A DNA stretch of 34,601 nt, from positions 1 to 34,601 of IMG/VR virus record IMGVR_UViG_3300020438_000127. One strand, 5' to 3'. The notes under the pieces are model-generated. The model did no database searches and was not told the origin of the DNA. It saw only the letters and a list, made by a program, of their open reading frames with translations. Origin of the DNA: a virus. The position numbers were made by a program, and so were the translations under genes. Positions 3,375 through 33,490 of this stretch are shown piece by piece (position 1 is the first letter of the stretch; each line of letters opens with the position of its first letter).

Positions 3375-3536
3375 GTTTGGTAGACAGTTCTCAAACTGGT
3401 TGTAAAGGGCAGCATCGTTGATTCCATTCTTTACCATACAGTCGGTTGAATATCCGAGAGGACACCCAACCATAAGATCCATCACGTATCGGATCTCAGA
3501 GGGCGTTAGAGGCACTTCTATAGTCTGGTCAGTCAT
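3357..3536 (-). CDS. Small hypothetical protein, 59 aa, behind the methyltransferase
   Basis: ATG at 3536 overlaps the TGA of the methyltransferase gene (ATGA), so I take this start rather than the in-frame one at 3617, which lies inside that gene. The protein begins MTDQTIEVPLTPSEIRYVMD and contains two cysteines (GCPLGYSTDC). Coupling places it in the same transcript as the restriction-like cassette, although it may be an unrelated passenger. It has no recognised fold. Confidence 0.7.
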   Translation of the reverse strand: MTDQTIEVPLTPSEIRYVMDLMVGCPLGYSTDCMVKNGINDAALYNQFENCLPNAHSTP

Positions 3537-4417
3537 AAGTGGTTCAAGACGCTTGTGGGCGATTGTGGAGGGGTCTCTGGACATTCTGATCTTAGTCGAT
3601 CTGATGCGATTTGACAATAGTGCTCATCAGAATCAATTCCAATGAAGTTTCTATCAATACCTAGAGCAGCAACGCCAGTTGTTCCACTGCCACAAAATGG
3701 GTCGAGTACGGTAGAATTAATGGGAGAATAGATTTTGATAAGATACTCCATCAAACTCACAGGTTTGACTGTAGGGTGATCGTTATCTTGTCCCTTCTCT
3801 TTACGTGTGGCACGAGGAGCATAGAAATACTTTTGATGCTCATGTTGTACATCACCAATGATATTTGATGGATAGCGTCCATCAGGATTAGCATCTACAG
3901 TTCCAAACTCTTTCTGTGTGCCTGTAGTTTTACCATCCTTACCAAATGTGCGACGTTTAGCACCTTGTGCCACCCAACCAGTAGGAGGTTTCTTATCCCA
4001 CGGAATACGAGTGTTAGTTATATCAATCATTCCGCATCCCCATTCCTCAAAGTTATCCTTGAGCGTACCTTTGTACGGTTTCTGTGCTACGACAATGGGT
4101 TCGTGTGCGGGTTTAAGTTTATTATACTTGGGCATCTTGGTGGTAGTCATCCACATGATCTGATCTTTAATCATAAATCCCGCGTCTTCTACATTACATG
4201 CGAGTCTATGATACAATTCAGGAGAACAGAACGCAAGACAGAATGCACCAGGGCGAAGTGTACGATATACTTCACGCCAGATGTCTACATCAGGAACAGA
4301 ATGATCCCAATGATCCATACCCATACCATAAGGAGGGTCAGTAATACAAGAATGAAAAAAGTTCTCCCCATAAGTGGAGAGAACAGATTGGCAGTTACCC
4401 GCGAGGATGTTATACAT
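3533..4417 (-). CDS. DNA methyltransferase, beta-class N6-adenine/N4-cytosine type
   Basis: A 294-residue protein of the N6/N4 methylase family (PF01555 type). The catalytic motif DPPYG is at residues 27-31, before the SAM-binding motif DPFCGSGTTG at 239-248; this order defines the beta class. HPTVKP at about 214-219 and GRYPSNII at about 180-187 are further family signatures. The middle section (about 100-200) would carry target recognition. DPPY rather than SPPY favours adenine-N6, but this is not decisive. Length is normal for an intact enzyme. It follows the ParB-like gene with a one-base overlap (TAATG). Together with the endonuclease-like gene upstream this suggests a modification partner, or protection of phage DNA against host enzymes. 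Confidence 0.92.
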   Translation of the reverse strand: MYNILAGNCQSVLSTYGENFFHSCITDPPYGMGMDHWDHSVPDVDIWREVYRTLRPGAFCLAFCSPELYHRLACNVEDAGFMIKDQIMWMTTTKMPKYNKLKPAHEPIVVAQKPYKGTLKDNFEEWGCGMIDITNTRIPWDKKPPTGWVAQGAKRRTFGKDGKTTGTQKEFGTVDANPDGRYPSNIIGDVQHEHQKYFYAPRATRKEKGQDNDHPTVKPVSLMEYLIKIYSPINSTVLDPFCGSGTTGVAALGIDRNFIGIDSDEHYCQIASDRLRSECPETPPQSPTSVLNHL

Positions 4418-5577
4418 TAATACAGTTTAATCATTTTAGTTTCTCCAGCAAACTCAGGAAATGCTTCGTACATAGGCAAAGTACCAAGATTATCAACATA
4501 GATCATCTGATATGCTTCACCCATCATCTTCATGTGGTCACCAACCTTTTGGATAAACATGCGGCGCATTTCATCTGCTTTTATAGCATCAATTTTACCA
4601 GATTTCTTCAAAGAAAACAAGACCTTAAGAGGACCATTCTTATCAAGAACATGTTGAGCCCACTTATATGCTACCTCCTCAACACCACGACCTTCATCCT
4701 GAGAAAGAATAATGGGGATATCATTGTTAGAAATGAAGTCATAATTTTTAGTACCAGATTTAACCCATTCCTGAAACGTTTCTTCTACATACTCTGCCAT
4801 AAAAAGAGAATCCCATTTCTTACGTTCAGGAGTAAATCCACCTTTGTGTCCTAGTCGTCGAACGATAGCATCACGAGTTTTGGCATGAACGTGATATGAT
4901 TCAACTTCATCTAACATAGATTTTTCTTCCTTTTCAGGTGTAGGAGCGTTAGCAATAGCAACAGAAATGTCAGAGTTGGGATCCTGAAGTTGACGTAAAA
5001 TGCTGTTAATAATGTCACCATCCTTACGGGGATTAGATGAATAAAGATTACGATTCGCTTCAGCAGTTGCCCATTTAATAAGTTTGCTAATGGTAATGTC
5101 AATAATCCAGGCAAGAATATGAGTTTGACCAGCGAGTCGAGCAGCGTAAAGACGATGAGTAAGATTAGCAATACCATAAATTCTCTCTACGCCATCAGAG
5201 GAAAAACTCATACCTTGAAACTCTTTAGGAAGACGAAATACTGCTCCCTGCATTAAAAGAGGATCCCACTTCTTATCAAGCATATCTTTAGCAATACTAT
5301 CTACAGTATCCTGATCTTTATCATCATCAGCACGGGTTTGAAATCCACGGGGGCGATCTAATTCTTTATCATATTTGTGAGCAATATATCCCAAATCATG
5401 AATCTGACGAATGTCAATTAAAACAGGATGGTCAGTAACTGCCTTACCATATCCTTCAAGAAGAGTGTTGATATGAGGACCTTGCTTACAGTCTTCAAAT
5501 AATTCTGTATTGAAACAAAGATTTTCATTTACCTCAATACTAGTATCTAAGTGGAGAGTTTCTTCTAAAATTTCCAT
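4417..5577 (-). CDS. ParB/sulfiredoxin-fold-like protein, 386 aa
   Basis: The frame opens with TTG at 5607, but ATG at 5577 is the first standard start and is preferred. Residues about 52-160 resemble a ParB N-terminal nuclease-like domain: VLIDIRQIHDLGYIAHKYD, the Asp-Arg-Pro-Arg stretch, WDPLL, then ANLTHRLYAARLAG followed by HILAWIID. The HR inside that motif corresponds to the HR of the ParB/Srx GxxHR signature, although the usual Asp-Gly before it is replaced. The remaining roughly 225 residues are mostly helical and unknown. Plasmid partition is unlikely here. ParB-like domains are often found next to or fused with DNA methylases in phages. Sitting between an endonuclease-like gene and a methylase, it may provide DNA binding, nicking or control. 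Confidence 0.7.
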   Translation of the reverse strand: MEILEETLHLDTSIEVNENLCFNTELFEDCKQGPHINTLLEGYGKAVTDHPVLIDIRQIHDLGYIAHKYDKELDRPRGFQTRADDDKDQDTVDSIAKDMLDKKWDPLLMQGAVFRLPKEFQGMSFSSDGVERIYGIANLTHRLYAARLAGQTHILAWIIDITISKLIKWATAEANRNLYSSNPRKDGDIINSILRQLQDPNSDISVAIANAPTPEKEEKSMLDEVESYHVHAKTRDAIVRRLGHKGGFTPERKKWDSLFMAEYVEETFQEWVKSGTKNYDFISNNDIPIILSQDEGRGVEEVAYKWAQHVLDKNGPLKVLFSLKKSGKIDAIKADEMRRMFIQKVGDHMKMMGEAYQMIYVDNLGTLPMYEAFPEFAGETKMIKLY

Positions 5578-5596
5578 TGTTTTTGTTTGTGTGTAA

Positions 5597-6271
5597 TTAT
5601 TGGTCAAAAAGATTTAATGCTTGCTCTTCAAGAGATTCTGAATACTCCCAAAGATCAGCATCCTTGTGCTCAAATCTCTCAGCATATTCTGGTTTGATTC
5701 TACCAAGTTCAGATGCAAGTTTCTTTTTAAGGTAGATAGCATGATCTTCCATACCTTTAGCAAACGCCAAGACTGCTTTCGCTTCTACATCATTAATAAT
5801 TTGCTCGCCATGACGTATGATAATCACATTACTAGATGCCTTGTAAGTCAAATAGATAGTCACCCTAACTTTATCTGGATCATTCAAACCAGCGTTGAAT
5901 TTAGGAGTCTTTGATCCAGAAAAAATAGACTTACACTCAATAAATTTAATCTCATCAGGGTGAACAACAATGAAATCAGGAGTGCTCTTGGGAAGGTCAA
6001 GAACATAAACAGTCTTACCATCATCACAACCGCCAATATAGACTCTACACTTAGGTGTTGCTTTAGGGTGAATCTTTTTCTTCATAGAAGCAGTGAGATC
6101 CTTCACCTCAACTAAATCAAACTCAAAGATCAGGTCATCAAGAACAAGTGTCTCAAAGGTCTGACCTGAATTTTGATCAGTGTTTTGGGTGTCAGGGACC
6201 AAACTCTTTTTGTTGTCAGAGATTCTATCCAACACAGTCCTGATCTGCTTGCGAAAAACTGAGGAAGACAT
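5597..6271 (-). CDS. PD-(D/E)xK type II restriction endonuclease-like protein
   Basis: ATG at 6271 (224 aa) is chosen because the longer TTG-started frame at 6307 would begin inside the promoter. The active-site pattern is clear: TPDFIVV with Asp99, then IKFIECKS with Glu112 and Lys114, the spacing expected of a PD-(D/E)xK nuclease. It is followed by PKFNAGLNDPD, a stretch I recall from type II restriction enzymes of the HaeIII/NgoPII sort. The N-terminus is basic and helical; the C-terminus is helical and charged. It is the first gene of a transcript continuing into the ParB-like and methylase genes. Which site it cuts cannot be read from sequence. A Holliday-junction or recombination nuclease is the main alternative. 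Confidence 0.75.
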   Translation of the reverse strand: MSSSVFRKQIRTVLDRISDNKKSLVPDTQNTDQNSGQTFETLVLDDLIFEFDLVEVKDLTASMKKKIHPKATPKCRVYIGGCDDGKTVYVLDLPKSTPDFIVVHPDEIKFIECKSIFSGSKTPKFNAGLNDPDKVRVTIYLTYKASSNVIIIRHGEQIINDVEAKAVLAFAKGMEDHAIYLKKKLASELGRIKPEYAERFEHKDADLWEYSESLEEQALNLFDQ

Positions 6272-6295
6272 GAACGCTTGCTTGGTTATGAATAT

Positions 6296-6324
6296 AGTAT
6301 GACACAAAAAAAGGGGTGTGTCAA
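6296..6324 (-). promoter_or_regulatory. Sigma70-like promoter TTGACA-N17-CATACT for the restriction-like cassette
   Basis: TTGACA at 6324-6319 and CATACT at 6301-6296, spacer 17 nt. The nuclease ATG at 6271 lies 24 nt after the -10 box. The -35 hexamer sits in the loop side of the terminator hairpin of the upstream gene, so both signals share the same bases. Confidence 0.75.
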
Positions 6325-6337: not shown

Positions 6338-6898
6338 TTAGCGAAGTGGTGGACCAGTGAACCATCCAACGATGCTTTTTCTGATACCATGTGTCACAGG
6401 TGTAACCCTATGAACCATGTGACTAGGAAAAACTATTAGTGTGCCACGTTTTTTAGGGACAGAGAAAATACGGTATGGATCTTCTGAGTCTGGTGTTGGT
6501 GATATTGCTATTTGTAGCACTCCACCATCGTAATCATCATTTAGAACTAAGGAGAACGAAAGTTTCCTAACAAATGCTGCACTACAGTTTTTTTGAGTGT
6601 CAACATGCCAATTATAATGATCATTTACACAATAGTGTGCATATTGAAACTGATCGTTGTCATAGCAACGGAGATCATAGTTATATTCTTGCTTATTGAC
6701 ATCTGCTACATTGTTTAGACATAACTTTCCAATATAATGAGATGAATGAATAAACTTGACCTTACTAGATCTCCAATCAAGATTGTTATCAAAAGTTACT
6801 GCTTTCTTCCACTCTCCTATACTATCCAACTCAGCAATCATCTCATTTAATATTAGATCGTCAATTCTAAGTTGGCGCACAGAAAAAGTGTCCATCAT
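6338..6898 (-). CDS. 2OG-Fe(II) oxygenase, prolyl 4-hydroxylase type
   Basis: A 186-residue double-stranded beta-helix oxygenase. Iron ligands are His98 and Asp100 (YNWHVD) and His163 (HMVHRV); Arg173 (HGIRKSIVGW) would hold 2-oxoglutarate. The segments VLNDDYDGGVLQI and GTLIVFPSHMVH are typical of the PKHD/P4H group. Length is that of a single catalytic domain. It would hydroxylate a protein side chain; the substrate is unknown. ATG at 6898 overlaps the upstream stop. A strong terminator follows. It stands apart from the other three oxygenases, which are 2.7-5 kb upstream near the fibre genes. Confidence 0.9.
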   Translation of the reverse strand: MMDTFSVRQLRIDDLILNEMIAELDSIGEWKKAVTFDNNLDWRSSKVKFIHSSHYIGKLCLNNVADVNKQEYNYDLRCYDNDQFQYAHYCVNDHYNWHVDTQKNCSAAFVRKLSFSLVLNDDYDGGVLQIAISPTPDSEDPYRIFSVPKKRGTLIVFPSHMVHRVTPVTHGIRKSIVGWFTGPPLR

Positions 6899-7053
6899 TG
6901 ATCACTAAAGATAGGGATGATGTTAGTTTTAGCGTGTTCTGTTTTGTTAATGTGTTGTTCCCACATGCTAGCATCATCTAAGTTATAGAAGATCGCTTGC
7001 TGTTTCGCTTGCCCCTTCTTCTTGTTCTTCATCCACACAACTGCGTACTTCAT
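6895..7053 (-). CDS. Small basic conserved hypothetical protein, 52 aa
   Basis: The frame is open to 7152, but ATG at 7053 gives MKYAVVWMKNKKKGQAKQQA, the usual start I recall for this small cyanophage family (AVV..KN.KKG.AK, then a LDDA.MWEQH segment). With this start it overlaps the previous gene by 71 nt in another frame. Its stop overlaps the oxygenase ATG (ATGA). Function unknown. Confidence 0.7.
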   Translation of the reverse strand: MKYAVVWMKNKKKGQAKQQAIFYNLDDASMWEQHINKTEHAKTNIIPIFSDQ

Positions 7054-7216
7054 CCCAATACTCTCGAAAAACACATAAAGTTGACTGATAACGACCATGA
7101 CGACATGATGGGTCAGGTCGATCGACATAACAAATAGTGATATACCTATCACTGATAAAGTCTACCCACCCTGTGGTGGCGTGATACTGAACCTTCATAC
7201 CACGAGTAAATTTCAC
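6983..7216 (-). CDS. Conserved hypothetical protein, 77 aa, GTG start
   Basis: The start codon is GTG at 7216, in a GTGA overlap with the upstream stop. The first part (MKFTRGMKVQYHATTGWVDF) looks like a small SH3-like beta barrel: a basic opening, then GWVDFISDRYITICYVDR and REYWDEV. I recall this pattern in many cyanophages, where the protein usually ends soon after YWDE. Here the frame continues another 20 residues (acidic, Ser/Ala-rich) across the start of the next gene, giving the 71 nt overlap. Function unknown. Confidence 0.72.
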   Translation of the reverse strand: MKFTRGMKVQYHATTGWVDFISDRYITICYVDRPDPSCRHGRYQSTLCVFREYWDEVRSCVDEEQEEGASETASDLL

Positions 7217-7413
7217 TCGTCAACCTCTTCAAATGGTTGACGATTTTGATTCTCTACTTTAGGAAGACGGAACATCTCTTTCAAGTCATTCAACTGATTT
7301 AATTGACGTTGGAGATTGTCAATCTGTGCTTGTAAAATCTGAAAGTTAGAATCATTGTTATTCTGCATCATCAACATGTTGTTGATTGCTTGTTTAAAGT
7401 CTTCTTCAGTCAT
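7213..7413 (-). CDS. Coiled-coil hypothetical protein, 66 aa
   Basis: ATG at 7413 shares a base with the upstream TAA. The product is dominated by a Gln/Asn-rich heptad-like helix (FQILQAQIDNLQRQLNQL), so a coiled-coil oligomer is likely. The tail is polar and acidic. Function unknown. It is part of the chain 7875-6338 linked by small overlaps. Confidence 0.72.
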   Translation of the reverse strand: MTEEDFKQAINNMLMMQNNNDSNFQILQAQIDNLQRQLNQLNDLKEMFRLPKVENQNRQPFEEVDE

Positions 7414-7661
7414 TAGTAGCGTTCAGGAATACGGTGGTCTAGGTTAAGAGCAGTGTTGCCGGTCATAAGATCTCGAAGAGACATAGCACGACAGTATGCT
7501 GTCTTGTGATATTCTATCACATCATCGACGCCAGATAGCATCTCTTCATACGTTTGTCGTGCTGATACTTTATCATCGTTGAGGTAATCATCGATCGCAT
7601 CTTGCATACGATCTTTACGCTGTTTTGAATACTCATTTTTCCAGTTGATTTCAGTTTTCAT
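7413..7661 (-). CDS. Small hypothetical protein, 82 aa
   Basis: ATG at 7661 is favoured over an in-frame ATG at 7673; both lie in the end of the upstream gene. The sequence starts MKTEINWKNEYSKQRKD and is helical and charged, with a C-terminus LNLDHRIPERY. No motif is recognised. The 1-nt overlap with the next ATG supports the frame. Confidence 0.7.
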   Translation of the reverse strand: MKTEINWKNEYSKQRKDRMQDAIDDYLNDDKVSARQTYEEMLSGVDDVIEYHKTAYCRAMSLRDLMTGNTALNLDHRIPERY

Positions 7662-7875
7662 TAAAGTCTTCATTACGACGTTTGTCAAGGTATTCAATAA
7701 TCTCACTACGCCATTCTAACAACTCATGATAGCATTGCTGATCATGTGCGTCCTGACGTAGCTGATAGTCTGGTTTGAGAACGCTCTCATAGAAGATATA
7801 GAACGCATCTTTACGTTTCTCGTGTTTTGTGGTACTATTCCAATCCATGGGGTTCGACGGACGCTTTGCTACCAT
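7651..7875 (-). CDS. Small hypothetical protein, 74 aa
   Basis: ATG at 7875 follows a GGAGG sequence about 14 nt upstream and begins 10 nt after the stop of the 288-residue gene. The protein is charged and helical (EWRSEIIEYLDKRRNEDF), with an aromatic N-terminal half (FYIFYESVLKPDYQL). Unknown function. Confidence 0.7.
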   Translation of the reverse strand: MVAKRPSNPMDWNSTTKHEKRKDAFYIFYESVLKPDYQLRQDAHDQQCYHELLEWRSEIIEYLDKRRNEDFNEN

Positions 7876-7885
7876 AGCACAGGTG

Positions 7886-8752
7886 TCAACCTCCTGTCAA
7901 GTCTTTAAATTCGCTCAAACGGCATTGATGAACATAAAAATCTTTAATATTTCCGTCCACACCAATAACATACTCCAATTCAAACGTGGATTGACCAACG
8001 CAAATTGATCTGATATAGTCTTTCTGCTCAGATGTGATGATCTGAAGTCCATCATCACGAGTAAGTAAATCTAACAATCCATCAACTATATCTGTATTAA
8101 AAATTGTCTTGTTAACATACAAACCATTATCATTATCAAATATTTCTGGATACTTAAATGCCACCTGTAATTTAATATCTGTGCTACCTGGCAATAAAGA
8201 CACAACTCCTTTACAAACATCATATCTTCCAACAAATAAGGTGCAAAGTTTTTGTATGAAAGAATTGTCTTCTACATTAATATTGTAATGACCATCCCAA
8301 ACAGAAACCTCAGTGGCAATTCCATCCGGATTATATGATATGCCCATTATTGTCTCTTCCATCCCATCATTATTGTTAGTAATGCTTCTAATCTTAGTTC
8401 TAAAATCTAAGATATTATCATCACCAATCTCACTAATAAACTTATTCCAAATATTAGGATGTTCAATAGTAGAAAATCGAATTGGATTTTTACAATAATA
8501 TGACATTATATTATCATCTTTATGCTCGATATAAAGATATTTGTCAAAAACGTAATTATAATCTTGCGTATGTTTTTGTTTGTAATCAAACAATTTGTTG
8601 AACTTGACAATTAGATCAAGTTCCATATCTGGGAGATATGCAGAATCAACCAAACATGTAAATCTTCGTGGCATCATCTCGATTGTCGAAACATGCTCTT
8701 GTGTGTTTACATTGTATTTCTCTACAATGCGAAAGTTATCTGAGAACATCAT
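7886..8752 (-). CDS. Unknown protein, 288 aa, in the fibre/oxygenase cluster
   Basis: ATG at 8752 overlaps the upstream TGA (ATGA), so it is the last member of the coupled run that begins at 11022. I recognise no domain. The sequence is rich in Asp, Asn, Tyr and Ile, alternating like a beta-rich protein, with segments such as FRIVEKYNVNTQEHVSTIEM and YVIGVDGNIKDFYVHQC. There is no signal peptide or membrane helix. The region is AT-rich compared with the genes to the left. Its position suggests a role with the fibre assembly or modification proteins, but this is context only. Confidence 0.8.
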   Translation of the reverse strand: MMFSDNFRIVEKYNVNTQEHVSTIEMMPRRFTCLVDSAYLPDMELDLIVKFNKLFDYKQKHTQDYNYVFDKYLYIEHKDDNIMSYYCKNPIRFSTIEHPNIWNKFISEIGDDNILDFRTKIRSITNNNDGMEETIMGISYNPDGIATEVSVWDGHYNINVEDNSFIQKLCTLFVGRYDVCKGVVSLLPGSTDIKLQVAFKYPEIFDNDNGLYVNKTIFNTDIVDGLLDLLTRDDGLQIITSEQKDYIRSICVGQSTFELEYVIGVDGNIKDFYVHQCRLSEFKDLTGG

Positions 8753-9096
8753 TCGTTTGTCATTACGATTTGACCAATAGAGTTAGCAAGAGAATAGAAA
8801 ATGTAATTTTCTGGTGTAGTAACACTCTCCTGACTATCTGGTAGATTTGACTCCAAGAAATTTAACATATCATCAAAATCATCTACCTCAGCAAATACAT
8901 GCTCAGAATTCTTTAAAAGATTCCACAGATCATGGGGAAGAATGTTTTTATATATTTCTTGTGAGGCATTAATAGCATCCACATCAGAACTGGCATTCCA
9001 ACCAGTTGATCTGAGATATAATATCGCTTTACCTTTGAGAACAGCGTAGTTCTCAATAAAATTATCAAAGTAGAATGCGTTGTAAGATGAGTTCAT
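8749..9096 (-). CDS. Unknown acidic protein, 115 aa
   Basis: A TTG-started frame begins at 9114, but ATG at 9096 sits in an ATGA overlap with the oxygenase stop (9093) and is preferred. The N-terminus MNSSYNAFYFDNFIENY is aromatic, the middle is acidic (FAEVDDFDDMLNFLES), and the end is hydrophobic (FYSLANSIGQIVM). No family recognised. Coupling on both sides ties its expression to the oxygenase and the 288-residue protein. Confidence 0.75.
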   Translation of the reverse strand: MNSSYNAFYFDNFIENYAVLKGKAILYLRSTGWNASSDVDAINASQEIYKNILPHDLWNLLKNSEHVFAEVDDFDDMLNFLESNLPDSQESVTTPENYIFYSLANSIGQIVMTNE

Positions 9097-9608
9097 TTTA
9101 GTATTAGTTTCCAAGCAACAGTTACTCTCAACCCAGTAAATAATCTAGATGTTCCCTCTGCCATGTGTGGTATTTCACCGGGGAAAAGAATAGCAGAATT
9201 TGGAATAGGGTTTTTATATTCCAATTCATTTTCATTACGGAGAAATATAGTTTTTCCTCCCCACTCTGGTCTCCAGTTAGAATTTGCATAATATAGTAGG
9301 GTTCTCCCGTTTGGTTCATACCAATCAACATGGAATTCTCCTTGAGTACCAAATGTATGCCCATTAGCATACACATCATACAAATCATAATCTTGCTGGG
9401 TTTTTTCCCTAATGATATTTAGAAGATAATCAGAAAAATATGAATCTTCTAAAAAATCTATACGCCAAAATGGAATACCAATAGGATTGTTATTCTCATC
9501 TGCATGTGATCCATGTCCATATCTCCAGCGTGGTTCATTTATTTTAGATGTTATTTTCTCTACTACATTAAAAGAAAAAAATCTATCATATTGTATAATA
9601 TCATTCAT
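9093..9608 (-). CDS. 2OG-Fe(II) oxygenase
   Basis: A 171-residue oxygenase with iron ligands His93 and Asp95 (EFHVDWYEPNGR) and His148 (GEIPHMAEG), and Arg161 (FTGLRVTVAW) for 2-oxoglutarate. The WGGKTIFL strand after the HxD motif and the closing RVTVAWK strand fit the 2OG-FeII_Oxy family. It differs clearly from its neighbours at 9605 and 11028, so it is not a recent duplicate. ATG at 9608 overlaps the previous stop by 4 nt. The likely substrate is a protein or peptide; not known. Confidence 0.9.
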   Translation of the reverse strand: MNDIIQYDRFFSFNVVEKITSKINEPRWRYGHGSHADENNNPIGIPFWRIDFLEDSYFSDYLLNIIREKTQQDYDLYDVYANGHTFGTQGEFHVDWYEPNGRTLLYYANSNWRPEWGGKTIFLRNENELEYKNPIPNSAILFPGEIPHMAEGTSRLFTGLRVTVAWKLILK

Positions 9609-10081
9609 ATTTCAATCCAACACACAAACACATCTCTCCTGCCACATGTTACCTCATTTACTTTGTGAAGTAAATTACCGGGATATATTACTGCTTTTCC
9701 TTTTGATAATTTAATACTACGTTCATTCTCTATCACCAACTCTCCTCCATCATAATCATCATTAAGAAAACAAGTCATACTATAATCTGGTCTCACACCA
9801 CCACATGGATTAGCATCATAATGATTGTCATACATACCACCAACATCGTACTTGACAAAGTATATCTGTGATATTGTTGATGTAGTAAATGGCAATTTGT
9901 TTGACATTATATCACGACAATACATATTCAAATCTAAATTACCAGGTCCATCAAACACAGTTTGACAGACCTTATTAGCATTTAAATTACTAATCTTACC
10001 ATTAGTGAACGTTAAGTAATTAAAGTATCGATTGATATATGTTAATTGTTCATAATTTAGTAAATCAATCTCATATATCAT
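9605..10081 (-). CDS. 2OG-Fe(II) oxygenase, PKHD-type hydroxylase
   Basis: A 158-residue protein with His87 and Asp89 (YDNHYDAN), His139 (NLLHKVNEV) and Arg149 (CGRRDVFVCW), the full iron and 2-oxoglutarate set. LNDDYDGGELVI and GKAVIYPGNLLHKV are strong signatures of the PKHD hydroxylase group, related to prolyl 4-hydroxylases. ATG at 10081 overlaps the stop of the chaperone-like gene (ATGA), linking the two products. The same LNDDYDGG motif occurs in the oxygenase at 6338. Confidence 0.92.
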   Translation of the reverse strand: MIYEIDLLNYEQLTYINRYFNYLTFTNGKISNLNANKVCQTVFDGPGNLDLNMYCRDIMSNKLPFTTSTISQIYFVKYDVGGMYDNHYDANPCGGVRPDYSMTCFLNDDYDGGELVIENERSIKLSKGKAVIYPGNLLHKVNEVTCGRRDVFVCWIEI

Positions 10082-11022
10082 AGTTCATTTTCATCAACAA
10101 AGTAACTCGACCAATTAACTTCTACATCCTCATCAATGTTCAACTCTTTCATTAGATCTAATATTTCTTTTGTAACTTTTTTCGTAGGTGCTATTCCTCT
10201 TTGTGCCAAATTAAACATATTGACTTCTCTATTAGTAAAGAAGTCTGTAGATGCTTGAGAATCATGCTTGACCCACTGATTAGTATCATTAGCATCCATA
10301 AATGCTGGAGCATCAGTTACACCATCTTCCAATTTTCCACCTGGATACATTTTAAGATACTTAGATGGATCAATTGGGAATTTAAGATTATATGTGTACT
10401 TGAAGTATTCTAGTCCAGAGTTATTAAATTCTGCGTTTGATGGAGCAGGTGTAGAGTTGTCTCTAATCCACTTTCTCCACTTAATCCAACGATCTTTCTC
10501 GCCCTCATAACTATCTTCAATATCAGGAAGAATTCTCCAATCAGAAAATCCCAACATCTCTTGTCTTTGCCTCTTTAGTTTGTACATACGTTGCTCATAG
10601 AAAGCAACATCTGAGTCAATGCCAGCAACTACAGAATCAATTTTTGCTTTTTTTACTTCTAGTAAAACTCCAAAGAAAGTATCTATTAACTCATATAGTT
10701 CTTTTGCTTCTTGAGAATTAGCACCATTAAAATTATAAGTTTGAAGATATGTACTTTCCGTGCCGAAATCATACTTCACTCGTTTTCTTTGGCAGAAATA
10801 TGTACCGTCATTAAAATATTGAAAAAACTCAAGTAAATCTTTGTCTGTATTCCAAAACTCAGAAATTTTTGTACTGAGAAACCTTTTCTTAAGTTCCTCA
10901 TCTATTTTATGTCTTTTGCCGTTAAAATCTCCAAGCAATTTAAATTCGGATGATGTAGAAGCACCATCTATGATGGTATTATTGGCAAAATCAACTTGTA
11001 TAAGAGCGATTCTTTGTTCCAT
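10078..11022 (-). CDS. Tail-fibre assembly chaperone-like protein
   Basis: A 314-residue protein. Residues about 150-190 (RQEMLGFSDWRILPD, then about 14 residues on WIKWRKWIRD) match the pattern of the phage tail assembly chaperone family (Phage_tail_APC): leucine, SDW, LPD, then W..(Y/W)R..(I/L)RD. In other phages such proteins sit just downstream of fibre or tail genes and help fibre folding. Here the context fits: the 994-residue fibre is 0.7 kb upstream and oxygenases flank it. Residues 105-150 form a long charged helix. The C-terminal 120 residues are unknown and include PIDPSKYLKMYPGGKLEDG. The ATG at 11022 lies 5 nt after the previous stop. Confidence 0.65.
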   Translation of the reverse strand: MEQRIALIQVDFANNTIIDGASTSSEFKLLGDFNGKRHKIDEELKKRFLSTKISEFWNTDKDLLEFFQYFNDGTYFCQRKRVKYDFGTESTYLQTYNFNGANSQEAKELYELIDTFFGVLLEVKKAKIDSVVAGIDSDVAFYEQRMYKLKRQRQEMLGFSDWRILPDIEDSYEGEKDRWIKWRKWIRDNSTPAPSNAEFNNSGLEYFKYTYNLKFPIDPSKYLKMYPGGKLEDGVTDAPAFMDANDTNQWVKHDSQASTDFFTNREVNMFNLAQRGIAPTKKVTKEILDLMKELNIDEDVEVNWSSYFVDENEL

Positions 11023-11027
11023 GAGAG

Positions 11028-11696
11028 TTAATTACGTTTAATGTACCATCCTGTCAAGATATATTTATCTTGGGTAAGTACCGTGTTTCCTTTATGTGTA
11101 TGTGTATATCCTGCTGGCCAGATAACTACAGTTCCAGCAGTAGGTTTAATTCTACGTCTTTGATATAAAAACTCAGTTTCACCTTCGCCGTCTGGCATAT
11201 CATTAAGATATATCATCCAGACTAATTCTCTACAAGCATGTGTTTCATCAGCATTTTCATAATGCCAAAGATGATAACCACCACCTGGAGGAGTTTTCTG
11301 GATCTTAATATCAGAAGAGATCATTTTTGTATTCATCAAAGATTGATACTCTGACAGATAATGCTTCACACATGTCCTCAAAACTGAGTTAATTTTTAAA
11401 CAAAGATCTCTATCTGCATAATTCATGACCATCGCAAAATCCTTCCGATTCAATTGTCCACCATACAGATCTTCAGATTTGATCACATGATTAGGAACAC
11501 CAATTTCTTGCATTTTAAGACTTGGATTGACAACACATGCTAGATCAATTTGAGTGTCTACAAATTCACAAATTTCTTCACATAAAGGACGAGGCATAAA
11601 ATTTTTCCATACACCAATAAAATCGTCAAATTCAGAATCAGTAATGTTTTTATCATACATCAATTCATGTGGTCTATAATCAGGCAATGATGACAT
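11028..11696 (-). CDS. 2OG-Fe(II) oxygenase with HxE-type iron site
   Basis: ATG at 11696 (222 aa) is chosen over a TTG two codons upstream; it begins 2 nt after the fibre stop. The central motif GGGYHLWHYENAD places His145 and Glu147 where most family members have HxD. The distal ligand would be His199 or His201 (AGYTHTHKGN) and the 2-oxoglutarate residue Lys211 (QDKYILTGWY). LVWMIYLNDMPDGEGETEFL and KPTAGTVVIWPAG are typical strands. I recall similar proteins with the WHxEN pattern in cyanophages. The Glu for Asp change may lower or alter activity. Location next to fibre genes suggests fibre modification (inference). Confidence 0.85.
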   Translation of the reverse strand: MSSLPDYRPHELMYDKNITDSEFDDFIGVWKNFMPRPLCEEICEFVDTQIDLACVVNPSLKMQEIGVPNHVIKSEDLYGGQLNRKDFAMVMNYADRDLCLKINSVLRTCVKHYLSEYQSLMNTKMISSDIKIQKTPPGGGYHLWHYENADETHACRELVWMIYLNDMPDGEGETEFLYQRRRIKPTAGTVVIWPAGYTHTHKGNTVLTQDKYILTGWYIKRN

Positions 11697-11698
11697 AA

Positions 11699-14683
11699 TC
11701 AATAAGCTTTAATAATATATTTAGTCTTATGGAAGGGGTTGATAATTGGAACTTGTATCTGTGGTTCCATTGTAACAGATGGAAATGGTTTGGCAAAACT
11801 TTTATTCCATACAAATAAACCATCTGTCATATCCATAAAAATTTCAGTTTGATTGAATATTAAGTTAATAGAAGTAGCACCATTTCCCAACCCAGCTCCA
11901 TCTGGTGCCGTAAGAGTACCAGCGCCACTATTATTGCCACCACTAAAATCAGATTGTATATTTTGAATGGGATCTAAAGTAATGAAGTGAGAATGATTAT
12001 TTGTGGTGCCACTAACAGGGAGATATGACTCAATAGTAAATCTAGTTGTAACTGTATCAACAACCGCAGCAACGCTATTGCCATTAATAGGGTTTAAATC
12101 CATAAGATCTGCTCCACTCAAAACACTTACTGGAGAGAACCACCAAGTCATAAAGTCAACTTCTGTTACATTGTCATTTGATTCAGAGGAAAAGTCAACA
12201 CCATCAGTGACATCAATTCCACCAGGGACATTGGGCGAAGGATTATTACCACCACTTTCAAGTCTTTGAGTTTGTAAATTTTCTCGGACCCACTGTTCCA
12301 TATCAAAACCACCACCTTCATAAAATTCAAGTTCTGTTTTAAATCTACCACCAGCTAAATTATTTAAATATTGTACCCATTTTTGTACCTGTGCATCAAT
12401 ACTACCTTTTCCAACGCTTTCTTCTGTATTACCATATTGTCCACTGGAGACACCAAACATACCTCTACCGGTAGAATTGCCCCATCTAATTAAAGGATCC
12501 CCACCATCACCTTCAGGAATAGCAGTAATATATGCATGATCATGTTCCGGAACTTGTACAACAACATCTTCTAATGGACCAATCTGCCCAACAACAGTTC
12601 CTTGAATATTAAATCTAACGTCGTCCGTTACTGTTTCCAGTCCTGCTATTTTTACTGTTCCTAAACTAAAGTATTCACTAACTAACCCTGTAGTTCCAGT
12701 TCCTTGAATCTGCTCTAATGGATCACTGCCTAAAACATCCACCTTATCAAAATACCAATATCCACCTTCACCACCAACATTAAAAATAGATCCCGAAACT
12801 GGCAGACCAACCGAGTTTGCTCTACTAGCATCAACTTGCCCAGTACCACATAGTCTTCTGTTTCTATAATCAGGAAGATTAAAACTAGAACCAGACCCAC
12901 CATAAGTGTATTCAATAACATCAAATAGCATAAAATACTGTGTTGTACTTAAAGATCTACCATCACACGAAATGAATCCGGGATATCTATCACCAAGAGA
13001 TCCATCAAGATCACCATAATTTCCAAGATTATCTTTTAAAATTGGCAATACAGTACCAATTGGATAACCATCAAATTTTTCAACTTTCTTACTATACCAA
13101 ACACCTAAATTATTTGCTGGAAGTGGTGCTGCAGCATAACTAGATACCGTCCATGTAAAAGGGTTGTTTAACGATCCTGTTCCAACTGTTACTGATGTAC
13201 TTTGTGAAGTATTAAGATTTGATGGTACTAGACTTGACAAGGTAAATGAAGTATTTACAGTGGGATCAAACGTTCTAGGACCAACAACTGGTGTATCGCC
13301 ATCAATAGAAATCAATGATCCATTTGTAGCATTAATAGTAATAGGTATATTAATTCCAGTAACAGTAACTGGAGCACTATTTTTATATGTTCCAGGAATT
13401 TGATTAACTAAATCTGGTGGAACATTAAATGTAGCATCACTATCTGGTCCGCTACCTGTTATAACAGTCCATGTTGATATATCTCTATCACCAACGCGAA
13501 TCTGAAGTTCTTTAGGTGTGCTAAATGCTGAAGCAGACTGTAGATAGATGAATAATTTATCGCCATTTTGTACAGATGTTGGGAATACACCAATTGATCC
13601 ATTATTAACCTGTACACGAACTAAACTAGAATCTGTAGAAACAACCTCTACAGGTACAGACAATCCAGCAGTTAATCCACTGATACCAGCAGTGGGTTGT
13701 TGATCCGATCCAATTAATGTATTTGTAAGAACTCCAGTTTGATCTGCAAATACGAAATTAGATGGAGTATTATCAGATGCTACTCCTGTAGTAACAGTCC
13801 AATTTGATCCGTTGGCATCATCAGCAATAGACAAATCTGTCGATTTTGGCGTTGAATTAGTTGATGGACTTAAAATTCTTAATTGTAAATAATCGCCATT
13901 ACTGACAGTTCCACTAGTGCTCCAACTAGAACCAGATAATACTTCATATCCATCAGCGTTTGTGGATGTATTGCTAGTCAAAGATAATAAATATTCTCCA
14001 CCGTTAGTAAGACTAATAGGTCCATCCTCATTCATTCCTTGTACTCTTAATACTTCACTATAGATAAGAGTATCTACTTCAACAGGATCTAAGTCTGTAA
14101 AATCTGGAAACGGTACAGCATTGTTTCCAGGAATTGCTTCATTCCTTACTTTCCAAGTTTCATTAGCAGTTCCAATAACCAAACTTATATTCATAAACTG
14201 AGTATAGAACGTAGAAGTTCTACCCCTTATTTGAATTCTAGCACCATTTTCAACAGTTTGGGTGCCATCAGCAACAATCCATCCAGTATCCCATGTTCCA
14301 TTACCATCATAGTCAATACGTAGCGCAACATAATCAGTAAAAGAAGCTCCAGATGGAATTGGAACATTACTAGAAATAGCAACAGGTGCTTGTGTTGTTG
14401 GTGTTAATCCAGTGATAGTAGGTATTACTTCTCCCGGTCTACTTCCATCACCAAAAGTATACAAAGTATCCAACTCAGCATCTTCAAATCCTTGTAGTGG
14501 AAACGGATCTGGTGTAAAATCTTCCGGAATAGTTGTGATCAACCAATATTGAAGGAGATCACCAACCTGAATAGTGACTGTTTGCGTTGTATTCCAACTA
14601 GGTGGCGCTTTAAATTTAAACTGAACGTAATCGCCTTCGGATACGAAAAGTGGTTCATTATTTGGTGCAAATGAAAATGACAT
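11699..14683 (-). CDS. Large tail fibre protein with Ig-like repeats and a collar domain, 994 aa
   Basis: Residues about 10-530 contain five related beta-sandwich repeats with the pattern NGDYLQLRIL, STPK..L.I..G and WTVTTG. Residues about 535-610 are a phage tail collar domain (PF07484-like): YPIGTVLPIL, then PGFISCDGRSLS and FNLPDYRNRRLCG. A His-rich segment (EHDHAY) and a late NHSHF segment recall metal-binding sites in T4 gp12-like short fibres. The end (HKTKYIIKAY) matches the endings of the other collar proteins (YIIRAY, EYIIKF). It would be an exposed fibre or adhesin. ATG at 14683 follows AAGAGGA with almost no spacing; a late promoter lies 28 nt upstream. It is followed at once by an oxygenase and the chaperone-like gene. 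Confidence 0.88.
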   Translation of the reverse strand: MSFSFAPNNEPLFVSEGDYVQFKFKAPPSWNTTQTVTIQVGDLLQYWLITTIPEDFTPDPFPLQGFEDAELDTLYTFGDGSRPGEVIPTITGLTPTTQAPVAISSNVPIPSGASFTDYVALRIDYDGNGTWDTGWIVADGTQTVENGARIQIRGRTSTFYTQFMNISLVIGTANETWKVRNEAIPGNNAVPFPDFTDLDPVEVDTLIYSEVLRVQGMNEDGPISLTNGGEYLLSLTSNTSTNADGYEVLSGSSWSTSGTVSNGDYLQLRILSPSTNSTPKSTDLSIADDANGSNWTVTTGVASDNTPSNFVFADQTGVLTNTLIGSDQQPTAGISGLTAGLSVPVEVVSTDSSLVRVQVNNGSIGVFPTSVQNGDKLFIYLQSASAFSTPKELQIRVGDRDISTWTVITGSGPDSDATFNVPPDLVNQIPGTYKNSAPVTVTGINIPITINATNGSLISIDGDTPVVGPRTFDPTVNTSFTLSSLVPSNLNTSQSTSVTVGTGSLNNPFTWTVSSYAAAPLPANNLGVWYSKKVEKFDGYPIGTVLPILKDNLGNYGDLDGSLGDRYPGFISCDGRSLSTTQYFMLFDVIEYTYGGSGSSFNLPDYRNRRLCGTGQVDASRANSVGLPVSGSIFNVGGEGGYWYFDKVDVLGSDPLEQIQGTGTTGLVSEYFSLGTVKIAGLETVTDDVRFNIQGTVVGQIGPLEDVVVQVPEHDHAYITAIPEGDGGDPLIRWGNSTGRGMFGVSSGQYGNTEESVGKGSIDAQVQKWVQYLNNLAGGRFKTELEFYEGGGFDMEQWVRENLQTQRLESGGNNPSPNVPGGIDVTDGVDFSSESNDNVTEVDFMTWWFSPVSVLSGADLMDLNPINGNSVAAVVDTVTTRFTIESYLPVSGTTNNHSHFITLDPIQNIQSDFSGGNNSGAGTLTAPDGAGLGNGATSINLIFNQTEIFMDMTDGLFVWNKSFAKPFPSVTMEPQIQVPIINPFHKTKYIIKAY

Positions 14684-14710: not shown

Positions 14711-14718
14711 TATTTATC
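14711..14718 (-). promoter_or_regulatory. T4-type late promoter, GATAAATA
   Basis: The minus strand reads GATAAATA, one base off the T4 late consensus TATAAATA. It lies in the 42-nt gap before the 994-residue fibre, 28 nt upstream of its ATG, a normal position for a late -10 element (late promoters lack a -35). It separates the 994-residue fibre and its helpers from the upstream structural genes. Confidence 0.65.
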
Positions 14719-14725: not shown

Positions 14726-15514
14726 TTACATCTGACGAACATCTTTCCAATCACCATCTTGATTAAGATCAACCTGAATTGGATAGTTACTCTTAACTTC
14801 CACTTTGATGTCAACATCATCAATTAAGATTAACTCTGATAAAATTTCTACTTCGGGTGAAACAACGGGGGTCTGATCTTTTATTAAATCCTCACTTTCA
14901 GGAATATTTAAATTTTCCGGAGTATCATCGACAATAATCGGTACAGTAAATGATTGTTCTTGAAAATTACCCAACTTACCGGTTGCCCTAACTACATACG
15001 AAACACTTAATGGTCCCCTATCATTATAAGGTATTGTTGTAATATACCCATTAGTAGATTCGGTTCCCCCAATTTCAGCATTGTCATTGACCGATAAATT
15101 GACAGCAGATCCTGTAGTAGATCCAACATAATCATAGTTATATGTTGGTGTGACCGTTATAGAATCTGTAGCATATTTTGTGGTAACATTAATAGTTCCT
15201 TGATTACCATACAATAAATTAGTTGGAGGATCTACAGATAATTCTACTGGTTGGTAAACAACAACAGTCACGCTACCGGTATCAGTTCCACCAACACCAG
15301 AAACTTGTCCAGTATATACTGTAGTAACTGATGGAGTTACGTCCGAATTACTGGTTAAATTGCCATTAGTAAGACCACCAGCTAACCACGTCAAGGTAGG
15401 GGTCCAATTTAATCCATTACCATCACCACTAACAGACCAAGAAATATTAGCTACATCATTAAGCATCATTTCCGTTTTATTGGTGGAAATATTAAAAATA
15501 GGTGGAACGTAAAC
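14726..15514 (-). repeat. Duplicated C-terminal module, copy A
   Basis: This 789-nt segment encodes residues 324-585 of the glycine-rich protein and corresponds to 16485-17273 without insertion or deletion. The two 262-residue modules differ at roughly 35 positions. Long runs of DNA are identical between the copies, for example around the GNQGTINVTTKYATDSIT stretch. Confidence 0.9.
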
Positions 15515-16483
15515 TGTAGCAGTTGCTGTTGCTGTTGCGGAAAGACCATTTCCAAAAACAGTTAAAGTGTAAGTAATAGTATTGGTAGGACAATTTACAG
15601 TGCTTCCATTTACACCAACTGCTCCAATACCTTGATTAATAGTAGCACTAGACGCATTTGTAGATGACCAAGATAATGTAGTACATTCTCCACGTTTAAA
15701 TGCTGTAGGACTTACCGAAAAACTGTTGATTGTGGGGAGTGCAATATCATAATAAACAGTTGCGAATCCATTACCAAAATGCTGTGATCCTGAATTGGAA
15801 TTAAAACTACAATAAGTGCTATTATAACCAGACTGACCGCCACTACCACCGCCGCCACCTCGGTTACTATCAACGCCATATGCACCACCGGCACCGCCGC
15901 CGCATCCACCGCCGCCGCCGCCTCCACCGCCGCCATCAGGACCACTACTATTGGATCCATTTTCAGTCGTATTTTTTTGACCAACGCCACCAAGACTGCG
16001 ATTGTCTGGATTTCCTGTTAATAGTCCAGTACCAGTCGTTCCATTGGTGGCGGATCTCCCCAACGAAGCGCCACCTCCACCGCCGCCGCCACCAAGTACA
16101 GCAACCCATTTATTGCTAAAAGTATCGAAAATACCAGTAGCACCACCGCCACCGCCACCAGCACCAGAAGATCCATAATCAGCAGAATTTCCACCCTGTC
16201 CACCAGCAGCAGTTAGAGATGATCCGCCACTACCACCAGGACCATTGCCACCTCCACCGCCGCCGCCACCTACACTTCCGAGATAGAAATCTAATCTTCT
16301 AGCAGTAAGATTAGGAAAATATATATTTGCTCTTCTTCCAGCACCACCTTCTCCACGACTGGCGCGAGCATCGTTGCCACCTGCACCACCGCTAGCTCCA
16401 GCAATATCTACACGAATATTAATCGCATAACTTGGAATTTGTACTGATCCGTTGCTGTTAAATGTTTGCTGAAAGTCTGCCAT
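14726..16483 (-). CDS. Glycine-rich adhesin-like structural protein, 585 aa
   Basis: Residues about 28-240 are extremely glycine-rich, with runs of 7-10 Gly (71-80, 109-114, 131-138, 184-199). Similar glycine-rich domains form stacked polyglycine-helix adhesins in T4-like phages (gp38-type). Before the runs lies FQQTFNSNGSVQIPSYAIN, a small beta start. Residues about 250-320 are an Ig-like domain (SVSPTAFKRGECTTLSWS), and 324-585 is the module shared with the next gene. The C-terminus ends VDLNQDGDWKDVRQM. The likely role is host receptor binding at a fibre tip. ATG at 16483 lies one base past the upstream TAA, whose end supplies GAGA as a weak ribosome site. Local G+C is strongly raised by the Gly codons. 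Confidence 0.85.
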   Translation of the reverse strand: MADFQQTFNSNGSVQIPSYAINIRVDIAGASGGAGGNDARASRGEGGAGRRANIYFPNLTARRLDFYLGSVGGGGGGGGNGPGGSGGSSLTAAGGQGGNSADYGSSGAGGGGGGATGIFDTFSNKWVAVLGGGGGGGGASLGRSATNGTTGTGLLTGNPDNRSLGGVGQKNTTENGSNSSGPDGGGGGGGGGGCGGGAGGAYGVDSNRGGGGGSGGQSGYNSTYCSFNSNSGSQHFGNGFATVYYDIALPTINSFSVSPTAFKRGECTTLSWSSTNASSATINQGIGAVGVNGSTVNCPTNTITYTLTVFGNGLSATATATATVYVPPIFNISTNKTEMMLNDVANISWSVSGDGNGLNWTPTLTWLAGGLTNGNLTSNSDVTPSVTTVYTGQVSGVGGTDTGSVTVVVYQPVELSVDPPTNLLYGNQGTINVTTKYATDSITVTPTYNYDYVGSTTGSAVNLSVNDNAEIGGTESTNGYITTIPYNDRGPLSVSYVVRATGKLGNFQEQSFTVPIIVDDTPENLNIPESEDLIKDQTPVVSPEVEILSELILIDDVDIKVEVKSNYPIQVDLNQDGDWKDVRQM

Positions 16484-16484
16484 T

Positions 16485-17273
16485 TTAGATCTCTCTTACA
16501 TCGGTCCAATCACCATCTTGATTAAGATCAACCTGAATTGGATAGTTACTCTTAACTTCTACTTTAATATCAATATCATCAATTAAAATTAAATCAGATA
16601 AAACTTCTACCTCTGGTGAAACAACTGGTGTTTGATCTTTTATTAAATCTTCACTTTCCGGAATATTTAGATTCTCTGGAGTATCGTCAATAATAATTGG
16701 AATGCTAATTACTTGTTCTTGGAAGTTGCCCAATTTACCTGTTGCTCTGATTACATATGAAACACTTAATGGTCCCCTGTCATTATAGGGTATTGTTGTA
16801 GTATATCCTGTAGTAGATTCAGTTCCACCCATATCAGCAGCGTTATTAACAGGCAAGTTAACTACAGATCCTGTAGTAGAACCAACAAAATCATAATTAT
16901 ATGTTGGTGTTATCGTTATAGAATCTGTAGCATATTTTGTGGTAACATTAATAGTTCCTTGATTACCATACAATAAATTAGTTGGAGGATCTACAGATAA
17001 TTGCACTGGTTGATAAACAATAACAGTTACAGTACCTGTATCAGTTCCACCTACGCCAGAAACTTGACCTGTGTATATTGTAGTATCTGATGGAGTTACG
17101 TTTGAATTACTAGTTAAATTACCATTAGTAAGACCGCCAGACAACCATGTTAAAATAGGAGTCCAATTTAATCCATCACCATCTCCAGTAACAGACCAAG
17201 AAATATTAGCTATATCATTAAGCATCATTTCCGTTTTATTGGTGGAAATATTAAAAATAGGTGGAACATAAAC
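16485..17273 (-). repeat. Duplicated C-terminal module, copy B
   Basis: The 789-nt partner of 14726-15514, encoding residues 234-495 of the 495-residue protein, ending in VDLNQDGDWTDVREI. Equal length and dense identity indicate duplication or recombination between neighbouring genes. Confidence 0.9.
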
Positions 17274-17972
17274 AGTTAAAGTTTTCGTGACTGAATTGCT
17301 CGTAATTCCAAAATAATCTGCAGTTAAAGTGCGACTAATCGTACTAGTGGGACTTAAAATAATACTACCAGGTGTTCCAACACTACCTTGACCAGTTAAA
17401 GATCTGGATGTAGAGTTAGTAACAGACCAAGACAATGTAGATGATAATCCCCTTTGAATAGCAGTAGGATTAAAATTTAAAGTAATACCTGGTGTGGGAT
17501 ATGTACAAGTTCCATTATCAAGATCTGCGCTTGGATTATAGTTTGTAGCACGGGGATCTGTACATCCAGGAACAGGTGGGGGAGGAAAAAATCCAATCCA
17601 ATCTATAGCAACACCCCAAGGTCCACCACCAGAATTAATAACAGTAGCACTAAGAGTATATGTGCCTGGTCCATAATAATTTGCAGTAGTAACTGCACTT
17701 TGACTCCTAAAACCACCCATTCCCATTTCATAGTTGCCATTAATATAGATTGCTCCACTATCATCTACATTGGCATAGAATATTTGTCTGCCATAATCTG
17801 CAAAAGTAATAGTCCAAGAAAATGTTCTATTACTACCATTACCAGAACCACCAGGATCAACACCACCAATATTATAACCATTCATAAAAGAAGACCATGC
17901 ACCATTAGTATTGGTGCCGGTATATCCTTGATTATTTGGAGATCTACTTGTGAAACTAGAATCTTGGGTCAT
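16485..17972 (-). CDS. Adhesin-like structural protein with PA14-like N-terminus, 495 aa
   Basis: The N-terminal 130 residues look like a PA14 or lectin-type beta domain (FSWTITFADYGRQIFYANVD, DDSGAIYINGN, GPGTYTLSATV). A Pro-rich linker leads to GCTDPRATNYNPSADLDNGT (from residue 136), a cysteine-bounded motif common in secreted surface proteins of marine bacteria. An Ig-like domain follows (about 160-230), then the 262-residue module shared with the gene at 14726. The gene pair thus has one fixed C-terminus and two unrelated N-termini, as expected for alternative receptor-binding heads. ATG at 17972 is 2 nt after the previous stop. It is probably part of the virion. The PA14 assignment is tentative. 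Confidence 0.83.
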   Translation of the reverse strand: MTQDSSFTSRSPNNQGYTGTNTNGAWSSFMNGYNIGGVDPGGSGNGSNRTFSWTITFADYGRQIFYANVDDSGAIYINGNYEMGMGGFRSQSAVTTANYYGPGTYTLSATVINSGGGPWGVAIDWIGFFPPPPVPGCTDPRATNYNPSADLDNGTCTYPTPGITLNFNPTAIQRGLSSTLSWSVTNSTSRSLTGQGSVGTPGSIILSPTSTISRTLTADYFGITSNSVTKTLTVYVPPIFNISTNKTEMMLNDIANISWSVTGDGDGLNWTPILTWLSGGLTNGNLTSNSNVTPSDTTIYTGQVSGVGGTDTGTVTVIVYQPVQLSVDPPTNLLYGNQGTINVTTKYATDSITITPTYNYDFVGSTTGSVVNLPVNNAADMGGTESTTGYTTTIPYNDRGPLSVSYVIRATGKLGNFQEQVISIPIIIDDTPENLNIPESEDLIKDQTPVVSPEVEVLSDLILIDDIDIKVEVKSNYPIQVDLNQDGDWTDVREI

Positions 17973-17974
17973 TT

Positions 17975-18862: not shown

Positions 18863-18863
18863 T

Positions 18864-20174: not shown

Positions 20175-20177
20175 CTC

Positions 20178-32520: not shown

Positions 32521-32522
32521 AA

Positions 32523-32594: not shown

Positions 32595-32599
32595 ATGAG

Positions 32600-33452: not shown

Positions 33453-33490
33453 AATGTTATGGTTTCCTGTTAATGTTATATTTAACAGAA

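Follow-up and report, generated by a model that had tools for sequence, protein, structure and literature searches.

2OG-Fe(II) oxygenases rank among the most numerous accessory genes in marine cyanophages, and the published proposals for their function there are DNA repair or nitrogen signalling. The described proteins closest to those of the locus analysed here come from several quarters. Among the oxygenases they are the viral collagen prolyl hydroxylase of PBCV-1 (5c5t), bacterial prolyl 4-hydroxylases (P4Hs; 3itq, 5hv0), including that of B. anthracis, the PKHD-type enzymes PiuC and Sbal_3634 (9ghl, 3dkq), and the HIF prolyl hydroxylase PHD2/EGLN1 together with PPHD of Pseudomonas. Among the chaperones they are the PF16778 (APC) family, Pam3 gp25 and Mu Tfa. 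The ABBA, or PT-barrel, prenyltransferases (AmbP1, FamD1 and NphB, and the cyanobactin enzymes PatF, PagF and KgpF), and the cyanophage flavin halogenase VirX1 (Syn10), complete the list.

The window, that is, the whole stretch of DNA analysed, comprises 34,601 nt of the viral record IMGVR_UViG_3300020438_000127 (Table 1). The six ORFs that a preliminary description had placed behind a 994-residue fibre gene are all present there, on the minus strand. That description called them mostly joined by ATGA overlaps, and this is so for the four junctions from the chaperone to the last gene (chaperone/OG2, OG2/OG3, OG3/742 and 742/743); fibre and OG1 are separated by 2 nt, and OG1 and the chaperone by 5 nt. 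We refined the start of OG1 to the ATG at 11696; that of 742 is probably the ATG at 9096, giving 115 aa. A fourth oxygenase, OG4, is loosely attached downstream in the window, and lies directly behind 743 in S-PM2, S-H9-2, Sf-FP1 and S-RIM32. In S-PM2, whose host is Synechococcus WH7803, the fibre is p226 and the chaperone p228. We treated the labels ‘DNA endonuclease V’, ‘ferrochelatase’ and ‘minor coat protein’ with caution.

Table 1. Features of the fibre–oxygenase locus, in order along the minus strand
Feature	Position	Strand	Length (aa)	Remarks
T4-type late promoter motif NATAAATA	14711..14718	-		35 nt before fibre start
Fibre, short-tail-fibre-like, phrog_4924	11699..14683	-	994	tail-collar domain
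OG1, prolyl-4-hydroxylase-like 2OG-Fe(II) oxygenase	11028..11696	-	222	invariant H145xE147, H199/H201, K211
Late promoter motif GATAAATA	11062..11069	-		in OG1 codons D210-K211-Y212; 47 nt before chaperone start
Tail-fibre assembly chaperone-like protein, phrog_4697, PF16778 type	10078..11022	-	314
OG2, PKHD/PiuC-type 2OG-Fe(II) oxygenase	9605..10081	-	158	H87xD89, H139, R149
OG3, 2OG-Fe(II) oxygenase, phrog_274	9093..9608	-	171	H93xD95, H148, R155/R161
742, phrog_4883	8749..9096	-	115 (probable)	unknown fold; part of fibre–chaperone–742 core
743, phrog_4851	7886..8752	-		predicted PT-barrel (ABBA) fold; co-occurs with OG1
OG4, further 2OG-Fe(II) oxygenase, PF13640	6338..6898	-		downstream

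The assignment of OG1, OG2 and OG3 to the 2OG-Fe(II) oxygenases, made at first by inspection, holds. OG1 and OG2 match the PF13640 profile at E 1.6e-10 and 9e-13, and OG3 at 7e-5, which is below Pfam's cut-off; all three retain an intact HxD/E...H iron triad and the Lys or Arg that binds 2OG. The OG3 triad is invariant in 13 sequences, and the catalytic residues of OG1 are invariant in 79 diverse ones. By profile, OG1 is nearest to the P4Hs: it matches the bacterial enzymes at E 9e-6, with the distal His and 2OG-binding Lys aligned, and the PBCV-1 enzyme at 1.5e-5, and it shares the His-to-Lys spacing (+10) of B. anthracis P4H. Because its proximal iron motif is HxE in 79 of 79 sequences, instead of the usual HxD, we call it P4H-like rather than P4H; it also differs in having a phage fibre, and not a collagen-like protein, as its partner, and in that its activity is predicted. 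The OG2 family aligns with PKHD/PiuC hydroxylases over its entire length (E 1.5e-38), HxD, H and R included. The OG2 of the window departs from that family by its place in a phage fibre operon and by the loss of the C-terminal domain, which is missing from S-CAM4 and ACG-2014e as well, and present in the other ten sequences aligned. OG3 resembles PHD2 weakly over the catalytic core (E 0.04; 0.04–0.7 with PPHD included), a borderline similarity. The sequence relatives of these enzymes are protein (mainly prolyl) hydroxylases, then, and not nucleic-acid oxygenases. The PHROG label ‘DNA endonuclease V’ was rejected for OG3 in favour of its 2OG triad and its resemblance to PF13640 and PHD2; a similar protein so labelled itself matches PF13640 at 7e-7. 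Oxygenases of the same superfamily occur also in cyanophage replication regions, so the superfamily as such is not fibre-specific.

The protein earlier described as tail-assembly-chaperone-like matches PF16778 at E 0.05 by itself; 50 of its 88 relatives do so at that value or better, down to 6.4e-8, in agreement with that description. It conserves the APC motif LxxSDWRxLPD...W..WR..R and, like Pam3 gp25, combines a beta-rich N-terminal domain with a helical C-terminal part. Unlike the APC chaperones, Pam3 gp25 and Mu Tfa, however, it is twice as long, and its model has no significant structural match: Foldseek found nothing above background (best E 0.16), and the best match to solved structures by VIA (Z 5.1) was to the helices of DnaK, a common arrangement. 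For neither protein, chaperone or fibre, did a sequence search find a relative of solved structure. Of the two proteins set down originally as unknown, 743 is predicted to fold as a PT-barrel, which had gone unnoticed: 50 of 50 among the matches listed are ABBA prenyltransferases, and the model aligns end to end (Z 13.2, 219 of 288 residues, rmsd 3.9). A search for a sequence match to these enzymes gave none, and 743 is without the conserved basic set that holds prenyl diphosphate: its alignment shows partial conservation of a basic residue at just two positions (K12, 0.77; K71, 0.88).

The motif NATAAATA has been published as the late promoter of cyanophages (PMC2984593), and its distance from the fibre start is that of a promoter, which points to a T4-type late unit. 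This motif occurs at -30 to -41 before the fibre in 69 of 101 related loci, compared with 1.1% at random. A second motif, not remarked on before, lies inside OG1, where it overlaps the codons of the 2OG-binding motif. It precedes the chaperone in 149 of 149 loci (77 of 77 after dereplication), compared with 57% expected. We rejected the reading that it is a mere by-product of coding for Asp-Lys-Tyr, because codon choice at these residues is 100%, against 63–97% at other conserved Asp, Asn or Lys positions. A late motif was looked for before OG2, OG3, 742 and 743, and none was found in the loci examined.

The neighbourhood comparison called for in the preliminary description reveals a near-invariant order, fibre–OG1–chaperone–OG2–OG3–742–743, in 160 distinct cyanophage loci. 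Of 93 PF13640 genes in 12 genomes, 39 are no more than 5 kb away from the chaperone, compared with 4.8 expected; this clustering far exceeds chance. OG2 and OG3 are gained or lost jointly, never singly (4–5 joint changes on the chaperone tree), and OG1 and 743 co-occur among loci. Evolutionary distances, after removing the neck gene gp14, correlate between fibre and OG1 (0.62) and between fibre and OG3 (0.69), in a sample of 9 genomes and with the proviso that linkage by itself, without interaction, can produce such a correlation. In S-RSM4 and ACG-2014h the cassette takes variant forms, in which oxygenases still follow the fibre and chaperone. The coupling of oxygenases to fibre and chaperone that had been claimed thus has strong support: the gene order is conserved, late promoter motifs are present, the genes diverge in step, and oxygenases recur behind other fibres. 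In 10 loci of one clade, fibre, chaperone and 742 occur without any intervening oxygenase, and hydroxylation is therefore no general requirement for fibre folding. Sf-FR1, too, has no oxygenase in this cassette.

We consider it somewhat better than an even bet (probability about 0.55) that the locus works as an operon for maturing the fibre late in infection, in which the oxygenases hydroxylate residues of the fibre while it folds with the chaperone's help. One late promoter would drive the fibre and OG1, and the second, within OG1, the chaperone, OG2, OG3, 742 and 743. The newly made fibre would be held by the chaperone, with 742, while the oxygenases, working as Fe(II)/2OG protein hydroxylases, hydroxylated specific side chains, Pro being the most likely target of OG1. 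Hydroxylation before or during trimerisation might then tune how stable the fibre is or how it binds its receptor. OG2 may work in tandem with OG3, and OG1 may partner the putative PT-barrel protein 743. The late, fibre-tied genetics is seen in the loci themselves; from it we infer the substrate, and likewise enzymatic activity, residue types and effect on the phage. Fibre columns conserved only in oxygenase-bearing loci (P655, P966, N917 and K986/K988) are candidate sites, and prove nothing, since OG1 absence counts as one event in the tree.

Co-transcription names no substrate, and late, protein-acting oxygenases could serve neighbouring structural proteins instead, or the giant fibre of 4064 aa, or the chaperone: several further large virion genes lie directly upstream of the fibre (14726–32372). 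We think this unlikely, because the genes upstream vary between loci in number and length, whereas OG1 lies between fibre and chaperone in every OG1-bearing locus in which both are seen.

Other fibre loci widen the picture. Unrelated ones in syn9, Sf-FP1, Sf-FR1 and S-RSM4 carry different oxygenase arrays immediately downstream, headed in the first three by flavin halogenases of the class of VirX1. In syn9 the oxygenases alternate with other proteins. Oxygenases with a halogenase make up a second module, overlooked previously, which follows fibre genes at two genome positions other than this one; no halogenase was found in the present window. Halogenases together with a PT-barrel are reminiscent of natural-product tailoring, and in pelagimyophages the region downstream of the fibre is a hypervariable host-recognition cluster with glycosyltransferases (PMC7029224). 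The cassette might accordingly be cargo beside the fibre that modifies host or envelope molecules late in infection (for superinfection exclusion, or acting on lipopolysaccharide or small molecules). This is more improbable still: order, overlaps and embedded promoter are fixed across the sampled loci, unlike variable cargo, no biosynthetic scaffold gene was seen there, and the fibre is the sole constant partner.

Both published proposals fit the data poorly. Drawdown of 2-oxoglutarate, altering host nitrogen signalling through NtcA, has been put forward for cyanophage 2OG oxygenases generally (PMC3037559); it leaves the late promoters, the fibre–chaperone position, the joint loss of OG2 and OG3 and three conserved active sites unexplained, and we give it little credence. 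We give no more to the idea that catalysis has been lost and the proteins are iron-binding folding partners, delivering Fe, for example, to the HxH pairs of the fibre (714/716 and 897/899). These pairs are invariant in all fibres examined, and iron is known at such sites in T4 gp37 (PMC11705849), but loci that have no oxygenase at all conserve them just as well, and the 2OG-binding residues, needless for an iron carrier, are invariant too. Least probable is an AlkB-like role in DNA repair or modification, proposed for the syn9 enzymes next to UvsX/UvsY (PMC2984593) and echoed by the endonuclease V label discussed above, given the late promoter context, the 2OG triad of OG3 and a solved-structure profile search that matched prolyl hydroxylases and found no AlkB or TET match for OG1–OG3.

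In the open-access literature searched, we found no report or proposal of fibre hydroxylation in cyanophages. If many of their 2OG oxygenases are fibre-modifying, the long-standing question of their substrates would become directly testable in laboratory phages. More tentatively, cyanophages may use interchangeable fibre-tailoring modules to finish their virion adhesins covalently, with hydroxylases partnered either by a PT-barrel protein or by flavin halogenases. Such modules would be a protein-level counterpart of peptide-natural-product tailoring, and would explain many of the 2OG oxygenases and tryptophan halogenases of these viruses that have yet to be given a substrate. Enzymatic hydroxylation of a bacteriophage adhesin, if true, would add a chemical layer to host recognition, one that would be invisible to sequence-based prediction of host range.

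The window is a 34.6-kb piece of a Kyanoviridae T4-like cyanophage genome whose closest relatives, Synechococcus phages S-CAM4 and ACG-2014j, share ~81% DNA identity with it over the cassette region. The cassette comprises a fibre, three predicted 2OG-Fe(II) oxygenases (OG1, OG2 and OG3), a fibre-assembly chaperone-like protein ('chaperone'), and proteins 742 and 743. As the preliminary description stated, ATGA overlaps join most of these genes: there are four such junctions, and two short gaps (fibre/OG1, 2 nt; OG1/chaperone, 5 nt). Elsewhere, a possible restriction–modification set includes a 236-aa protein in the same position as 'restriction endonuclease II' of ACG-2014e and ACG-2014i, and a late promoter motif, TATAAATA, lies at 32420, upstream of the phrog_4527 gene.

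Features of the window
Feature	Position	Strand
Fibre, tail-collar protein (phrog_4924), 994 aa; heads cassette		minus
OG1	11028-11696	minus
Chaperone-like protein	10078-11022	minus
OG2	9605-10081	minus
OG3	9093-9608	minus
Protein 742	8749-9096	minus
Protein 743	7886-8752	minus
Fourth oxygenase (OG4)	6338-6898	
DNA N6/N4 methylase (PF01555), 396-aa unknown protein, 236-aa protein	3533-6307	
Single fibre-like protein (phrog_4527), 4064 aa	20178-32372	
CpeT-like antenna gene flanked by four tRNA genes (Asn, Thr, Leu, Met)	32522-33652	

The comparison covered the annotated gene neighbourhoods of 13 named cyanophages and a single-cell contig that lacked annotation, whose ORFs were called; related IMG/VR loci were gathered with three chaperone profiles and one OG1 profile, and removal of duplicates left 160. 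The pairing of oxygenases with chaperone, which the preliminary description proposed to look for in other phages, recurs: the order fibre–OG1–chaperone–OG2–OG3–742–743 is nearly invariant throughout the 160. Among loci with a judgeable right side, 103 carry the full set; OG2 and OG3 are both missing in 11, OG1, OG2, OG3 and 743 jointly in six, and 743 alone in two. On the chaperone tree, OG2 and OG3 change state five times, always together, and OG1 once. Because of these patterns, the core consists of fibre, chaperone and 742, to which two accessory modules, OG1 plus 743 and OG2 plus OG3, are added at constant places. Pairwise distances, in a small sample of nine genomes where linkage alone can contribute, correlate after removing neck gene gp14 at 0.62 (fibre–OG1) and 0.69 (fibre–OG3), and in the same analysis at 0.87 (chaperone–742).

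Within 5 kb of the chaperone lie 39 of 93 PF13640 genes, against 4.8 expected, a descriptive figure from 12 mutually related, chaperone-bearing genomes. In S-RSM4 and ACG-2014h the cassette is rearranged, yet still stands behind fibre and chaperone, and at 88.7-95.0 kb of S-RSM4 (6735-13007 of locus L301) a tandem 2OG oxygenase array directly follows an 8.8-kb tail fibre gene. A second, homologous module, combining a flavin (tryptophan) halogenase with 2OG oxygenases and unknown proteins in alternation (phrog_7084, phrog_8014, phrog_1644), occurs behind fibre genes at two distinct genome positions: in syn9 (L299, L300), at about 21-45 kb, after genes for fibres or glycine-rich adhesins, and in Sf-FP1 (L302, 98-118 kb) and Sf-FR1 (L303, 92-110 kb) adjoining neck genes at about 98-115 kb. 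That modules shift position but remain behind fibres argues for a functional tie. Oxygenases of the PF13640 superfamily also occur in cyanophage replication regions; therefore, not every one is fibre-linked.

OG1 shows no variation in its iron triad or 2OG-binding residues (H145xE147, H199/H201, K211; 79 sequences), and the same holds, in alignments of relatives, for OG2 (H87xD89, H139, R149) and OG3 (H93xD95, H148, R155/R161). Searches of solved structures pair OG1 with prolyl 4-hydroxylases from bacteria and with the viral prolyl hydroxylase of PBCV-1, OG2 with the PKHD-type hydroxylases PiuC and Sbal_3634, and OG3, weakly, with PHD2 and PPHD; none of the three match lists contains a nucleic-acid oxygenase. 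The label 'DNA endonuclease V' for OG3 is unsupported, the protein having instead the 2OG triad and these weak matches. RefSeq cyanophage records label 2OG-oxygenase-like proteins of phrog_274, phrog_2297 and phrog_3531 'DNA endonuclease V', 'DNA endonuclease' and 'ferrochelatase', likely a propagated misannotation. Only three copies of OG2, those of the window, S-CAM4 and ACG-2014e, have lost the C-terminal ~70 residues.

Profile searches link half of the chaperone's relatives to PF16778. Its predicted model, beta-rich at the N-terminus and otherwise helical, has the arrangement reported for Pam3 gp25 (PMC9608196); a search of solved structures returned no significant match. Two HxH pairs are retained by all fibre sequences that were compared, and in T4 gp37 this motif binds iron (PMC11705849).

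The AlphaFold2 model of 743 (mean pLDDT 91) is a PT barrel of repeated beta-beta-alpha units. Every one of the 50 entries in the VIA-align listing is an ABBA prenyltransferase, with Z reaching 13.2 over 219 of 288 residues, and Foldseek concurs (E 1.5e-4). Some ABBA-fold family members have peptides as substrates, PagF and KgpF being two from that listing. The 743 family is highly divergent and its alignment revealed no conserved basic residue set; we therefore describe 743 by its predicted PT-barrel fold and do not call it a prenyltransferase.

The published cyanophage late promoter, NATAAATA (PMC2984593), lies at -30 to -41 of the fibre start in 69 of 101 loci and upstream of the chaperone in 153 of 160 (random rate 1.1%); the same scan never found it upstream of OG2, OG3, 742 or 743. 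Cyanophage 2OG oxygenases have been proposed to act in DNA repair (PMC2984593) or 2OG signalling (PMC3037559); the late context of the cassette speaks against a part in repair or early metabolism. The cassette is most safely called a conserved, late, fibre-linked, putative hydroxylase operon. Its most economical function would be fibre hydroxylation during chaperone-assisted folding, to which we give a probability of about 0.55; the open-access literature searched contained no such proposal.

In the window, the chaperone's late promoter motif (11062-11069) is embedded within OG1 active-site codons, those for (Asp/Asn)-Lys-Tyr, the Lys being the 2OG-binding lysine. It is present in 149/149 OG1 loci (77/77 dereplicated), against 57% expected from codon usage; codon choice varies at other conserved Asp/Asn/Lys positions. 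The clade without OG1 has similar TAAATA motifs in the fibre–chaperone gap. A previous genome-wide promoter survey retained intergenic sites only (PMC3037559), and would therefore have missed the embedded promoter. Coding and regulatory constraint overlap at this site, invisibly to intergenic-only promoter surveys.
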